This document shows, one piece after another, positions 5,979 through 56,369 of a stretch of 64,000 nucleotides of DNA. The notes under the pieces are model-generated. The model saw nothing but the letters and a program-made list of their open reading frames with translations, had not been told where the DNA came from and did not search any database. The translations under genes were made by a program, and so were the position numbers. This stretch comes from Arachidicoccus terrestris. Lineage in GTDB: Bacteria; Bacteroidota; Bacteroidia; Chitinophagales; Chitinophagaceae. The first letter of the stretch is position 1, and each line of letters starts with the position of its first letter. The stretch is from positions 4,650,001-4,714,000 of the forward strand of contig NZ_CP083387.1 in the NCBI RefSeq assembly GCF_020042345.1. The letters are read 5' to 3'.

Positions 5979-8900
5979 TTAGGCATTTTCCGCCTGTTCA
6001 TCCCTTACTTTTAAGCGCAGCAGTAAGGTTGGCAACACAATTAGTAACAATGGCAGTGCCACCACAAAGCCGCCGATGACCGCTATAGCCAGCGGCTGAT
6101 GCATTTGTGCGCCGGTGCCGATGCCCAGCGCCAGGGGCAACAGTGCAATAATGGCGCCTATGGCCGTCATAAGCTTCGGCCGGAGACGGGTGCTGATCGC
6201 ATAAATAATTGAATGCGCTTTATCCATGGTTTTAAGTGACTCCTTGAACTGTGCGTAAGTAAATATGGCATTTTCCCCGATAATACCGACAATCATAATA
6301 GTCCCCGTATAGCTGGCGACATTTAACGGTGTCCCTGTCAGATATAGCAGCAGAAAACTGCCGCTGACCCCAAGCACCGCTATGAGTAAAATGACCAGGG
6401 CGACCCTAAAATCTTTATATAAGAACAATATCACTGTAAACACCAGCACACTGGAAAGGCAAAGGATCAGCACCAGCTCGCTAAAAGACCGCTGTTGCTC
6501 TTTATAGGCACCCCCGTAGTTGATAGCGTACCCTTTAGGCAAATGCACTGCTGTTTTGATTTTGCTTTGAATTTCCTGCATGGTACTGCCCAGATCCCTG
6601 CCTTCCAATCTGGCACTTACGATTCCCATATTCTGTAAATTATCTCGTTGTTCTTCTGCGACACCTGTGACAATCTTAAACCGGGCAAAATCAGAAAATA
6701 ACCTTTTGCCGCCACCTGGTAAAAAAACAGGCTGGCTGCCAATATCACTTATGGAGGGTGGACGATTATGGAAGTACATCATTCGCATCGGTACCAGCTG
6801 CAAGGGATCCTGTACATAACTGACAAGAGTGCCGTTTAAATAGCTCTGTACCTGAAACTGGAAATCGGCCGGCGTTATGCCATATCTGGCCATTTCTGCA
6901 AAATCAGGCCTTATTACCAGAGAAGGACCTGCAATCGTTATGCCGTCAAAGACATCTGCCGTTCCCTGCACAGCGGACACGATAGCAGCTACTGATCTGG
7001 CCGTTTGGTGTAAAATAGGTTGATCACGGCCGAAGATCTGGATTTCAATAGGCTGCGCGGCAGTCATCAGATCCCCTAACATATCGCCGATTACCTGCCC
7101 AAAGTCTACCTGAAGCGGCAGTCCGGCTTTTTGAATGCCGTCACGCAGATGGCGGATTACATCTTCAGTAGTCGCCGTCCTGTTCTTCTTTAAGCCGATC
7201 AGGTAGTCACCCCTATTAGGTTCTGTAATAAAAAAACCCATCTGTGTGCCGGTTCTGCGATTGTATGTCGCTACATCACTATCGGCTGCAATAATCTGAT
7301 CTACCTGATCGAGTATCCGGCTTGTTTCGTCTAGTGTTGTTCCGGGCGGAGAACTATAATCCAATACGATACTGCCTTCATCCATTTCCGGCAAAAATCC
7401 GGTAGGAAGTCTGGGGACAGTCCAGACGCTTATCAACACCAGTATCGCGACGAAAACGACACTGTAAACAGGCTTGTGTATAAAAAAGCTGACCCATTTT
7501 TTTTCTTTGACAGGGTGGCTTTCCAATGGGATGCTTTTCTTTGATCTTTTAGAGAGGATGAGATAAATTACCGGTAAAAAAATCCAGCTAGAGAAAAAAG
7601 AACAAATCAGGGTGATGATCATGGTGTCGGTCATCACTTTAAAATAGGCACCCGCGATACCTGACATTAATATAAAAGGAATGAATATGACAATCGTGCT
7701 CAAAGAAGATCCCAACATGGCTTTAAGCAGATAGTGAATGGCATTTTTTACTAGTGAAGCGGAGGGGCGACCTGCAAACTCCTCATGTGTTCTCTGTATC
7801 TGTTCCACGACTACAATGGCATCATCAATAATCAAACCAACAGAAGCGGCGATGGCGCCAAGCGTCATAATATTTAGCCCCTGACCGGTAAGTTTCAAAG
7901 CGATCATGGTCAAACCGAGTGTTATCGGAATGGTCAGCAGCAAGGTAAGGCTGGGCTTAACAGACTTTAAAAATATTACGGCTACAACTACTGCCAGCAA
8001 AAGGCCGATCCAGAGGCAGTCCGATACGCTGTGCACAGCATCCAGCACAAAATCTGCCTGGCTGTAGTAGGGTTTCAATACCACGCCTTTGGGTAAAGAG
8101 GAGCTTAATTCTTTTACTTTACGCCGTACCCCGCTGGCCACATCTATTACACTCGTACCTGGCTGTTTAACGATCCCTATCAGAATGCTTTCCCTGCCAT
8201 CGGCTTTTATTTTCTGATACTGCCGGGCAGCATGAACGGTGATACTGGCCACATCCCGCAGTAGTATAATTCTGCCGGCCGTATTTTTAATAATAATGTC
8301 TCCTATCTGTCTTATATCGGTTAACCGGGCATCTGTTACGTTAAGGTATAAGGTTCTGTGATCGGACAAGTAACCTGAAGAGCGGATAAAATTAGTGTTG
8401 CTGACGCCATCTGCGACCTGCTGGGGTGTGATACCCAGCAGGCGCATTTTCTCTGGATAGAGCTGTATCCAATATTCCTTGTCCTGCCCGCCCAGTATAG
8501 GCACATCGCTGACGCCCGGCACCTGTGACAAGCCGGGCTTGATCGTAAACATTGCCAGCTGTTTTAAGGCTATGGGATCTAGCCGGTTACTGATAAGGGA
8601 ATAGCCCATCACCTGAAGGATAGAAGGGTTCATTTTCTCTACGCTAATGCTGGCCCCTGGTGGTAAATTCCCACGGATCTGATTGATCCTGGATTCAATA
8701 CGCTGTTTGCTTAGATCCAGATCCTCATTCCAATCAAAAAAAGCAGCGATCTCAAGACTGCCACGACTTGTTGTGCTTCTGATATCAGTCAGCCCAGGCA
8801 CCTTTTTTATGGCAGCTTCCATGGGACGTGTAACCGTCATCGACATCTGATCCACCGGTTGGTCCCCTGCTTCAACAATCACTTTGATCTTCGGGAAGGT

Positions 8901-52955: not shown

Positions 52956-53324
52956 ATGAAAAAGATTTTGATTCAAGAAAGAAATAAAGATGTTCGCGAA
53001 GTCCTCCAAATTGCGTTGGAAAGCGTAAATTATATGATATTCACCTTGAATGATGCGACAAATCTGCTATCGACTATTAAGCAGCTTCAGCCTCATCTCC
53101 TTATTATGGAATTTCATCGGAAAACGGAAGCCTGTATGGATATCTTTAATAAGGTTTTTTCAAACCACCCCAGATTACCGGTCATCGCCTTTAGCAGTAA
53201 TCCGCAATGTGAAAAATTATACCATAGTTTAGGGTTCTGTGGCTTTATACCCAAACCTTTTGATCTGAAACAGCTTTATAAAACTATAAGCGATATTCTA
53301 ACTGACAGTACGCCGGCGGACTGA
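52956..53324 (+). CDS. Degenerate stand-alone receiver domain
   Basis: 122 residues from M-K-K-I-L-I-Q-E-R. The fold is that of a response-regulator receiver with the conserved K-P-F near residue 101 and a Ser near 80. The phosphoacceptor Asp is replaced by Glu52 (L-L-I-M-E-F) and the acidic pair is reduced to E8-R9. It likely cannot be phosphorylated and could mimic the active state or bind a partner. It has no output domain. A start at 52917 adds 13 residues without domain character. No histidine kinase is close by. Confidence 0.75.
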   Translation: MKKILIQERNKDVREVLQIALESVNYMIFTLNDATNLLSTIKQLQPHLLIMEFHRKTEACMDIFNKVFSNHPRLPVIAFSSNPQCEKLYHSLGFCGFIPKPFDLKQLYKTISDILTDSTPAD

Positions 53325-53425
53325 TATAGCTTCCTTATCTGGTTAATGTACCATAAGGGTAAGATCTGAGATATTGCTGCTGCAATTTTGTAGGTGTTTC
53401 CTGCCTCTGATCAAAGAGATCTATC

Positions 53426-53668
53426 ATGAGTCATCATTCATGTATGCCGAAACAATGGAGCTATTTCAGAAATGCGCAGTTATTTCTCCATGCACGACAT
53501 ATCAATTTATCAGATAGCCGTTTTCCGATTGTAGAAAATTTACTCAAATATGTAACGCCATTCCCAAATCAGGGGGAAAATTTAGAATCTTCTGGTTTGG
53601 AAGACGCCGGGAAGGCAGTAATGGGCCTGTTGAATCTTCTAATTGATAGGATAAATAAAATCTACTAA
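53426..53668 (+). CDS. Small hypothetical protein
   Basis: 80 residues with no known motif. The second half is a possible amphipathic helix ending in L-L-N-L-L-I-D-R-I-N-K-I-Y. A strong terminator 90 bases beyond its stop supports transcription through it. It may be a small regulator or a remnant. Confidence 0.4.
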   Translation: MSHHSCMPKQWSYFRNAQLFLHARHINLSDSRFPIVENLLKYVTPFPNQGENLESSGLEDAGKAVMGLLNLLIDRINKIY

Positions 53669-53757
53669 ATGCCTTTTCGTATTAATTAGAGATCAATGAT
53701 TTATCAAATTTGAAAAACATTGAAGAGAATTTCAATCTATAACCCTCGCCCAAAAAT

Positions 53758-53780
53758 AGCTCTCCCCAAAAGAGCTTTTT
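53758..53780 (+). terminator. Intrinsic terminator
   Basis: AGCTCT (53758-53763) and AGAGCT (53771-53776) with seven-base loop, followed by TTTT (53777-53780). It ends transcripts of the small genes upstream. Confidence 0.7.
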
Positions 53781-53819
53781 CCTATAATTTATTTGGCATT
53801 AAATTTCATCAGGGGTAAT

Positions 53820-53921
53820 AGAGCTTTTTACCGGGGTGTGTCAGGACGTGTTAGGATGGACCTGATTCACAGAGAAAATACCCGTTGAACCTAAAGCAGG
53901 TAATACTGACGAAGGAAGCTA
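53820..53921 (+). promoter_or_regulatory. TPP (THI-box) riboswitch
   Basis: Order of conserved parts: P1 side AGCTTTT (53822-53828), GGGGTG (53833-53838), P3 stem TCAGG/CCTGA (53841-53845, 53861-53865), CAGAGA (53870-53875, one base from the consensus CTGAGA), ATACCC (53878-53883), GAACCT (53887-53892), P4 CAG/CTG around GTAATA, then GAAGG and the P1 return GGAAGCT (53914-53920). Thiamine pyrophosphate aptamer folded in the + direction. No thiamine gene follows; the only gene downstream is on the other strand. Confidence 0.85.
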
Positions 53922-53931
53922 AAAGACTCAG

Positions 53932-53963
53932 GCTCCGGTGAAAAATCACCGGAGCTTATTTTT
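53932..53963 (+). terminator. Terminator of the TPP riboswitch
   Basis: GCTCCGGTGA (53932-53941) and TCACCGGAGC (53946-53955) are perfect arms with a four-base loop, followed by TTATTTTT. It lies ten bases after the aptamer, the usual expression platform position. Confidence 0.8.
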
Positions 53964-54028
53964 GGATAGCTGTGAGATGAAATTGCCGCCAACTGTTCTT
54001 TCTGTAACAGACTATTTTCTCACAATAT

Positions 54029-55360
54029 CTATATACCAAACGGATATGTTTCAGGAATTTCCAGGTTATCAGGCTGGATATGTAAAGGATGTAAGGCAGT
54101 TGTCTCATCTATAAAGATGAATGCGTCATAACGGAACGGAATAATGCTTTTTACATAGTTTGCCGCTCTTTCATATTCAGGGCGATATACAACACCGATG
54201 GCTCTATGGCCAATAGGGACCTCTAGTGCACTTTCTTTAAGTTGATTCATCATTAGCAGGCAACTGTGACTGGCTCCTTGGTGCAGAACATGTTCCCAGC
54301 TATCTTGCTTGGCTTCAGGCACCGTCATTTTCTTCATATCATCTCCCCAGTATTCACCTGCGATAACACCACCTTTATAAGTCCCGAAGCCGATTAGCAC
54401 AGTATCGTTGTATTTTCTACGGGATAACTCACCTATATTGTACATTCCTTCGTCTGCCATTTCAGTGGCACCCGCATCTCCGATATGTGTATTATGTGCC
54501 CACACGATGGCTTTGGACCTGGGCCCGTGAAATAACAGTAAACGCTCCAAGGTATCTTGCATATGACTATCTCTGACATTCCACGAATGGGCATCCCCCT
54601 TTAACATCGTCCGATAGTATTTTTCTGCATTGACAGCTACTAATGCATTCTGCTCCATATTAAACGCTTGTTCAATATCGCCATCATACCGGGGCATTTT
54701 TTCGTGTATTGTAGCTAAGAGCCGTAACATTTTCGGTTCGCAGCTTTCCGAAACAAAACGACTGGCCCTTGCATAACGCCCTTCGTCTTTTTTATACGGT
54801 TCAAAACAGTTAAAGGCCTCTCGTGCGACTGCTAACGCATCCGGATCGTTTTTCTTGAGATACTGCATTATTACTTCCATAGATTCCCACAGACTATATA
54901 CATCAAGCCCGTAGAAACCTATTTTTCTTTGTGTGGAAATTGGCTGATTATATTTCTTTAACCAATCCGCAAACGCCACTATTTCCCAGTTCGCCCACAT
55001 CCACGTTGGCCAGCGGTTGAACTGCTTCAGAACATCAACCGCAGTCATCTCAGCGCCATACTGCTTAACATATCGGTTAAGTGCGTAACAATCCGGCCAA
55101 TCACCTTCCACAGCAATAAAATTAAACCCCTGCTCATCAATAAGCCGTCGACTGATCCGGGCTCGCCAGGTATAAAACTCATGGGTGCCATGAGAAGCCT
55201 CACCCAGCATGACAATACGTGCATCCCCAATTCTTTTTATCAGCGGATCAAGATCTTTATCATGCTTTAGTTCATGACAAGCATTTTTCACCTGCTTAAT
55301 ATAGTAACCGTTTGGTACGGTTTCAGCCTCGTTTTTTTTAATTCGTTTCATTAACATCAT
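54029..55360 (-). CDS. Erythromycin esterase family protein
   Basis: 443 residues. G-E-A-S-H-G-T-H-E-F near residue 54 and the E-G-D-W-P-D segment near 85 are signature motifs; His and Glu form the active site of the EreA/EreB-like family. Most members in free-living Bacteroidota are not clinical resistance enzymes and their natural substrate is unknown. The start lies directly after the stop of a phosphoribosyltransferase gene (TGAATG), so the two are one operon, a pairing seen in other genomes. Confidence 0.93.
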   Translation of the reverse strand: MMLMKRIKKNEAETVPNGYYIKQVKNACHELKHDKDLDPLIKRIGDARIVMLGEASHGTHEFYTWRARISRRLIDEQGFNFIAVEGDWPDCYALNRYVKQYGAEMTAVDVLKQFNRWPTWMWANWEIVAFADWLKKYNQPISTQRKIGFYGLDVYSLWESMEVIMQYLKKNDPDALAVAREAFNCFEPYKKDEGRYARASRFVSESCEPKMLRLLATIHEKMPRYDGDIEQAFNMEQNALVAVNAEKYYRTMLKGDAHSWNVRDSHMQDTLERLLLFHGPRSKAIVWAHNTHIGDAGATEMADEGMYNIGELSRRKYNDTVLIGFGTYKGGVIAGEYWGDDMKKMTVPEAKQDSWEHVLHQGASHSCLLMMNQLKESALEVPIGHRAIGVVYRPEYERAANYVKSIIPFRYDAFIFIDETTALHPLHIQPDNLEIPETYPFGI

Positions 55361-56014
55361 TCAAATATTAATAGTTTTATTGTATAGTTGTATGTATTTC
55401 ACAACCTCTTCATCACTCAATTGTCTAAAGTCTTCATAGAACTCACCTACACCTTTGAATATATCTGGCACAAGCGGGCAGATTACCACATCTACCTGCT
55501 CAGACAAAAGGTCGATGCTTGACTGACTAGCGACAGGGACGGCCACTATAATCTCGTTAGGGTGATGTGTCTTTACCATCTGTAAAGTACTCAACATGGT
55601 ATGCCCGGTAGCCAATCCATCGTCTGTTAAAATCACAGTTTTCCCCGATAGTGCTTCAGGTGTATGATTGGCTCCCATATACATTCTGTACATTTCCCGT
55701 AAACGTGTACGAATAACTGATATTTCCTTTTCGAAATACTCGCTCGGAACCCGTGTGTTATCATCGACAAAACTATCTGTCAGGCTTACTGCGCCGATGG
55801 CGTATTCTTTATGCAGCGGATGGCCTATCTTTTTTGACAATGCCAGATCTAGTTTAAAATTGAGTGATGTCGCAATTATATAGCCAATCGGCACCCCTCC
55901 TCTTGGAATGGCCAGAACAACGCCATTCATATCCGCATATCGGTCAAGCGATGCTGCTAGCAAATGCCCAGCCTCTTCCCTGTTTTTATAACCATGTATA
56001 TCCCAAAAAAACAT
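55361..56014 (-). CDS. Phosphoribosyltransferase-family protein
   Basis: 217 residues from M-F-F-W-D-I-H-G (56014). A strong Shine-Dalgarno GGGAGG sits at 56024-56019, seven bases upstream, which decides this start over the in-frame Met at 56104. The PRPP-binding loop V-I-L-T-D-D-G-L-A-T-G-H-T and the A-I-P-R-G-G-V-P-I-G-Y segment are typical of type I phosphoribosyltransferases of the stress-linked group. The base acted on is not known. It is first in a two-gene operon with the erythromycin esterase. Confidence 0.9.
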   Translation of the reverse strand: MFFWDIHGYKNREEAGHLLAASLDRYADMNGVVLAIPRGGVPIGYIIATSLNFKLDLALSKKIGHPLHKEYAIGAVSLTDSFVDDNTRVPSEYFEKEISVIRTRLREMYRMYMGANHTPEALSGKTVILTDDGLATGHTMLSTLQMVKTHHPNEIIVAVPVASQSSIDLLSEQVDVVICPLVPDIFKGVGEFYEDFRQLSDEEVVKYIQLYNKTINI

Positions 56015-56369
56015 GTTGCCTCCCATTTCTTTTTTGATACTCAATCGTGTACAAATCTTTCTGTGTTTCATTATAGACTGCTGTATAAAAGTCTCAATAA
56101 GCACTCCATATTCATATTTTATCTTGCAACTTTGTTATATAAAAGGTTAAAATACCATAGATATAACAGCCGTTCAGCCCACGGTAAAGGCCTACGTTAA
56201 ATAAATACATTCACGTTTAAAACCGGCGGCCGTCAGCATTATTTAGTGCGCCCGTTTGCCGGTCATCTTAAAAATATTTCATAAAGCCCCATGTTTTCAG
56301 TATTGCGTTTAAATACAATTATTTTTTGTACCGATATTTTAATATAAAATCAACATTCGGGTGGCAGTT
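56015..56369. other. Divergent intergenic region
   Basis: No further gene. It holds the start side of the esterase operon to the left and of the small membrane protein to the right. The strong ribosome site of the phosphoribosyltransferase lies at its left edge. Confidence 0.3.

Follow-up and report, generated by a model that had tools for sequence, protein, structure and literature searches.

Thiamine pyrophosphate (TPP) riboswitches are generally taken for leader elements of thiamine genes. As set out in excerpts of PMC7366714, the class has a P1–P5 aptamer architecture with a conserved core, and terminators are known among its expression platforms (PMC7237195). The element described here, located at positions 53820–53962 on the plus strand of a 64,000-nt stretch of genomic DNA (the window), shares this architecture and most of the conserved core with the TPP riboswitches of those excerpts, but has no co-oriented gene, does not stand beside thiamine genes, carries a TGGCA motif in place of TAnnTTTG and, in the window copy, has one key base changed (PMC7366714). 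A second comparison is offered by riboswitches whose transcript acts, or may act, as a regulator itself, e.g., the SAM riboswitches SreA and SreB of Listeria monocytogenes, which double as sRNAs, and EutX, an sRNA of Enterococcus faecalis that bears a riboswitch (PMC4691137, excerpts). The window RNA could resemble these in its product; it differs from them in ligand class and phylum.

At the window locus, RF00059 matched positions 53822–53934 of the plus strand over 105/105 model positions with 47.0 bits and an E-value of 1.4e-7 (cmscan). Because this is under the gathering score of 54.3 bits, a default Rfam scan of the window is silent at 53820–53962. The Infernal check proposed with an earlier, sequence-only reading of this DNA thus returned a score below threshold, which literally counts against the aptamer; the E-value, a second copy in the same genome and a group of covarying relatives nevertheless uphold it, and the aptamer in the window element is genuine. 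A chance look-alike, for which the low score could still be cited, is already refuted by the same three observations, and its probability is negligible. The P1–P5 helices of the class are present according to the covariance model, folding and the group alignment. The aptamer spans 53820–53929 (plus strand), with P1 formed by 10 nt at 53821–53830 and 53920–53929 (nine pairs and one mismatch); its pairs are kept in both copies and covary in 23 group members. It is followed by an intrinsic terminator (53930–53962, plus strand), which consists of a hairpin of 12 pairs with a 4-nt loop (53930–53957) and ATTTTT, has a stem identical to that of the second copy and was scored as a terminator on the plus strand only. 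The whole region (53815–53965) folds with –49.1 kcal/mol (z –3.85), which was equalled by 1 of 200 shuffles. The conserved CUGAGA box is intact in the second copy and reads CAGAGA at 53870–53875 (plus strand) in the window copy, with A at 53871, as had been noticed before. Since the U of this box is missing, in the window copy alone among 60 members of the group described below, TPP binding by the window copy is doubtful, and it may sense the ligand weakly or not at all.

The surroundings of the element also agree with the sequence-only reading, which had described an aptamer and terminator on the plus strand with no gene to control. Upstream, a further terminator hairpin (53758–53776, plus strand), scored on both strands, insulates the unit. 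Downstream, the next gene is convergent and encodes an erythromycin esterase-family protein (54029–55360, minus strand; Erythro_esteras, PF05139, E 1.1e-115), its stop codon 68 nt past the element and a phosphoribosyltransferase gene (55361–56104, minus strand; PF00156) in line with it. Inspection of open reading frames and Pfam matches gave no co-oriented gene under control of the element. An open frame at 53938–54114 (plus strand), antisense to the esterase 3′ end, is reachable by read-through only; the Pfam scan matched neither this frame nor an 80-aa frame upstream, and no evidence marks 53938–54114 as a gene. From its position, the convergent esterase message is a possible target of the RNA. 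Homologues of the esterase occur in plasmid records, the ten best of 205 having 40–51% identity.

The host genome (4.9 Mb, one contig) holds five TPP elements. Three of them, ordinary TPP riboswitches, stand before a thiC operon, a gene for a TonB-dependent receptor and one for a PnuC-like transporter (translations read by eye), much like the trio of TPP riboswitches of Bacteroides thetaiotaomicron (excerpts of PMC7366714). Beside the window element, the remaining one is the second copy (2,099,412–2,099,555, plus strand), which is 86% identical to the window copy, terminator included (124 identities over 145 columns, 4 gap columns), scores 53.4 bits with RF00059, under the gathering score, and is followed by a convergent DUF6807 gene (Pfam). 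Upstream, homology between the copies drops to 52% at about 30 nt and to background beyond; its 3′ limit is the T-run. The 17 substitutions between them fall 3 in 72 paired versus 14 in 69 unpaired columns (p 0.004), a result somewhat favoured by the structure having been set partly from these same sequences, and two of the three in paired columns make up one compensated pair. This pattern indicates that the two copies are under structural constraint. Some 3.5 kb from the second copy, two identical 449-aa transposase-like genes follow each other in tandem (L010, 10112–11461 and 11896–13245; by eye).

Five other genomes of the same genus carry 2–3 TPP elements each, and none has a DNA match to the window RNA. 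Synteny, put forward earlier as a check for lost thi genes, was uninformative at the window locus, where the esterase has only remote homologues (23–31% identity) in 3/5 of these genomes. For the second copy, the stretches of one same-genus genome (G002) that match the DUF6807 gene and a 243-aa gene are convergent and about 85 nt apart (under ~90 nt), with no thi gene between them, whereas in the host the stops of these two genes are ~1.5 kb apart and the gap holds a lipoprotein gene (PF03640) and the second copy. Genome G001 has the DUF6807 gene, the 243-aa neighbour being absent in the stretch examined. The suggestion that the window element is left over from a thiamine operon is therefore disfavoured, since the second copy, with its conserved structure, is an orphan too, the interval in G002 is free of thi genes and the neighbours scanned across the family (see below) belong to no thiamine family by name. 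The other option of the sequence-only reading, that the riboswitch produces a short RNA with a regulatory role, appears to fit better, and we favour a free-standing short RNA over the lost operon as a hypothesis.

Searches beyond the genus showed that the two copies belong to a larger group. With a covariance model built from both host copies (R1), terminated TPP elements were recovered from further genera of the host's bacterial family, with some match at E 0.001 in 241/394 family genomes, and a model of 23 elements from this yield (R2) matched 174/394 at E 1e-8 or better; both tallies mix group members with ordinary TPP elements, and the lower-scoring rows inspected were mostly ordinary. Among 395 genomes of the phylum, the host and three others alone matched at E 1e-12, these three without TGGCA and before TonB-receptor-like genes (by eye). 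We inspected 73 elements, i.e., R2 rows down to 68.8 bits from a listing of at least ~150 rows; L091, L093, L096 and L099, in or just below this score range and earlier found without TGGCA, were left out. Twelve of the 73, whose neighbours were already known, were picked out individually as TPP elements of ordinary or unclear type and set aside, including L145 (contig edge) and L175, both with a strong hairpin and no TGGCA; L166 was dropped for its weak hairpin. The 60 elements kept each have a strong terminator, and 55 of them, spanning 27 genera, have the TGGCA-type motif, which was absent from the R2 model itself although its 23 training sequences had been chosen using it. The common build is thus a TGGCA promoter-like motif, an aptamer and an intrinsic terminator. 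Seven of 20 group loci, the second copy among them, fail the RF00059 threshold of 54.3 bits and 13 pass.

In the 23-member alignment, which was fitted to the structure, 94.2% of cells are paired, 27/36 pairs are double-changed, P1 covaries and 0/500 shuffles did equally well. The CUGAG[AU] string is kept in 59/60 members, the sole exception being the window copy, and an ACCUG-type string likewise in 59/60; a UAAU.C-type loop string is missing in 11/60, second copy included, and a CGNAGG-type string in 6/60. An insulator in which the aptamer has decayed and the terminator alone matters, stopping transcription between convergent units, could account for the position of the element between two such units and for convergent genes that end –19 to 3 nt from the element in L119, L126, L131, L135 and L160. 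The two strings kept in 59/60 and the covarying P1 argue against a decayed aptamer, however, as does a window hairpin scored as a terminator on one strand only, so that we hold this explanation to be very improbable.

The sigma-54 (RpoN) promoter consensus is TGGCACG-N4-TTGCW. In the window, the promoter-like motif TTGGCATTAAATTTCAT (53793–53809, plus strand) has TGGCA at 53794–53798 and a T-rich box at 53804–53809 in sigma-54-like spacing, and it is placed identically in the second copy and in 53 other terminated TPP elements. In 55/60 elements, [TC]GGCA lies 35–53 nt upstream of GGGTG or a like sequence. These 55 sites resemble sigma-54 promoters in TGGCA(C/T), in the spacing of a –24/–12 promoter and in having T where it is expected (position +11 in 53 sites, +12 in 51), the GGCA letters having been selected for; they differ in the –12 box, most of them lacking its GC (G at +13 in 9, C at +14 in 19). 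An RpoN domain is found in 383/394 family genomes and so does not discriminate between them. A matrix of the motif, run over 306 kb of loci, gave 47 matches versus 3 in a reversed control. The RNAs' own promoters account for 32 of these (28 flagged by script; L123, one of L165, L167 and L168 by coordinates), leaving 15 versus 3, of which 9 lie 39–64 nt before open frames of at least 93 aa, some DUF892-, DUF326- or MscS-like (by eye). We infer that the TGGCA motif drives transcription of the RNA. A sigma-70 promoter was rejected for the window RNA, as its consensus had 3 matches in 53300–54300 versus 2.9 expected by chance and none at the element. In the 64-kb window, a loose pattern of the motif found the site of the element and six others, while strict patterns found no site and missed that of the element; a stricter pattern had one site in the whole host genome and is satisfied at neither RNA copy. 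TGGCA(C/T)..TTTT was also seen 39–59 nt before RNA-less open frames in L140, L144, L169, L171, L173 and L176, and these sites point to a promoter type of the host's family.

According to simple longest-frame gene calls, 23 of the 55 TGGCA elements have a co-oriented next gene at up to 150 nt and 10 have one farther away; a convergent gene follows 18 at up to 150 nt and 3 at a greater distance, and one element has no gene call. Convergent next genes thus occur in 21/54 called elements versus 0/11 set-aside TPP elements, all co-oriented, a difference with p 0.012, uncorrected for kinship; the choice of the 11 was made with the gene calls in view. The five of 60 without TGGCA have three convergent and two co-oriented neighbours. 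L074 was miscalled, a 218-aa DUF6766-like frame lying 59 nt downstream, and the neighbour of L158 is more likely convergent. A Pfam scan of 40 neighbour proteins, which include the window esterase, the DUF6807 protein of the second copy and three beside elements outside the 55, gave a family for 34 and none for 6, and none was a thiamine family by name. Co-oriented families include Usp, Ku, DUF763, DUF892, DUF6766, DUF72, PPDK, pyrophosphatase and erythromycin esterase, as well as MscS at L173, whose RNA has no TGGCA; convergent ones include Usp, DUF763, DUF2383, DUF326, GT9 and GH97. In one genus (g71), 9/9 genomes keep the RNA at one locus, next to a shared divergent gene (with a KGG motif in L120), and the downstream gene varies: a response-regulator gene at 364–848 nt in four, a convergent GT9 gene at 0–3 nt in two and others in three, one member of each having been scanned for its family.

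In nine members from other genera, the element lies 6–41 nt before a called gene and leaves no room for a further promoter, and control in cis is consequently likely for part of the group. Co-oriented genes with a TGGCA of their own past the RNA terminator were found at L121, L136 and L148, and TAnnTTTG in the gap before the Usp gene at L124. The module seems to serve both as a gene leader and alone. Alternatively, the window element may once have led a stress-type rather than a thiamine gene, which has since been lost or moved, and the RNA may persist by inertia. Many relatives do have a group element shortly upstream of a gene, in G052 a co-oriented erythromycin esterase gene, and the altered CUGAGA of the window copy would suit a relic. 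Moreover, an orphan element of genus g22 (L075) resembles such a loss by eye: it is followed by a co-oriented 62-aa frame similar to the start of the DUF6766 protein of its relatives, and here the downstream gene was probably lost and the RNA retained. Inertia is harder to reconcile with two orphan copies whose conservation is biased to the stems and which both retain terminator stem and antiterminator, and with convergent cases in 15/27 genera by the simple gene calls (14 without L075). We regard such a relic as possible but on the whole unlikely.

The antiterminator is a strand of P1/P2, UUUUUACCGGGG (53825–53836, plus strand), which can form 12 bp (2 G-U) with the 5′ arm and loop of the terminator, CUCCGGUGAAAA (53933–53944, plus strand); the second copy has one pair fewer. 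In prefix folding, the window copy passes from the aptamer (P2 about 0.8) to the antiterminator (0.85–0.95) and then to the terminator, and the second copy forms the antiterminator at 0.71–0.72 before the terminator, its aptamer being weakly folded (P2 0.07). For the focal copies, a mutually exclusive expression platform of antiterminator versus aptamer and terminator is therefore predicted. In a test of pairing between arm and aptamer, both focal copies, L088 and L111 reached the minimum possible p of 1/61 (0.016), and L135, L159 and L172 followed (0.033). Across the 60 elements, neither a duplex-energy test (p 0.26) nor prefix folding (p 0.12; for the 58 without the focal pair 0.24 versus 0.21 with shuffled arms, p 0.33) detected an antiterminator. 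A group-wide antiterminator was thus rejected, and the switch is read in the focal pair, not as a property of the group.

An alternative option could be a TPP-controlled antisense attenuator, in which low TPP leads to a read-through RNA antisense to the esterase message that lowers esterase expression. The predicted antiterminator of the focal copies is consistent with this, read-through from the window element would enter the 3′ end of the esterase gene, and the esterase, Usp and DUF763 families are found as co-oriented and as convergent neighbours of such RNAs. The second copy faces an unrelated DUF6807 gene, however, which argues against a special bond between RNA and esterase, and among the 24 convergent members 5, both focal copies included, have p < 0.1 for the pairing of arm and aptamer (combined p 0.057). 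Antisense attenuation is consequently an unlikely account of the element, if not the least likely one.

The reading that we prefer is that the window element is a stand-alone gene for a TPP-responsive small RNA, for which we see about even chances. The TGGCA motif would start transcription near 53820. Binding of TPP would close P1/P2, and the terminator would yield a short RNA of ~140 nt; this step is modelled on known TPP switches. Without TPP, the antiterminator would allow read-through toward the convergent gene. On the model of SreA/SreB and EutX, this short RNA could act away from its own locus, either as such or in its TPP-bound form. Against a stand-alone gene count the nine leader-like members, the apparent loss at L075, the lack of a group-wide switch, the CUGAGA change in the window copy and the absence from five congeners. 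Carriage by a mobile element was rejected as an origin: the RNA had no match in plasmid (72,556) and phage (50,697) records, and an exact-pattern scan gave none in viral contigs and 25 stretches in genome contigs, of which none is a TPP element and two tripped a loose flag, though these collections may omit near relatives and the pattern was exact.

The arrangement suggests a small RNA that reports the vitamin B1 state of the cell. More tentatively, and with the odds leaning against it, dozens of cassettes of a stress promoter, an aptamer and a terminator, many of them gene-less, could tie the stress response in trans to the cellular level of TPP; the aptamer would then serve one bacterial family, outside thiamine genes, as a free-standing sensor RNA within a sigma-54-like stress regulon. 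If so, TPP would be a wider metabolic signal, with terminated aptamers family-wide under another promoter-like motif and beside stress-type neighbours (Usp, Ku, DUF892, DUF72, erythromycin esterase) or no gene, and it would become one of the few ligands for which riboswitch-type small RNAs are known. Among the matches listed for the open-access literature, nothing dealt with TPP aptamers at stress genes or with gene-less TPP elements in this group; a preprint on Bacteroides TPP riboswitches is cited in the excerpts of PMC7366714. One genome (L122) carries two TPP–terminator elements ~5 kb apart (2305–2435 and 7460–7588), the second before a PAS-histidine kinase gene.
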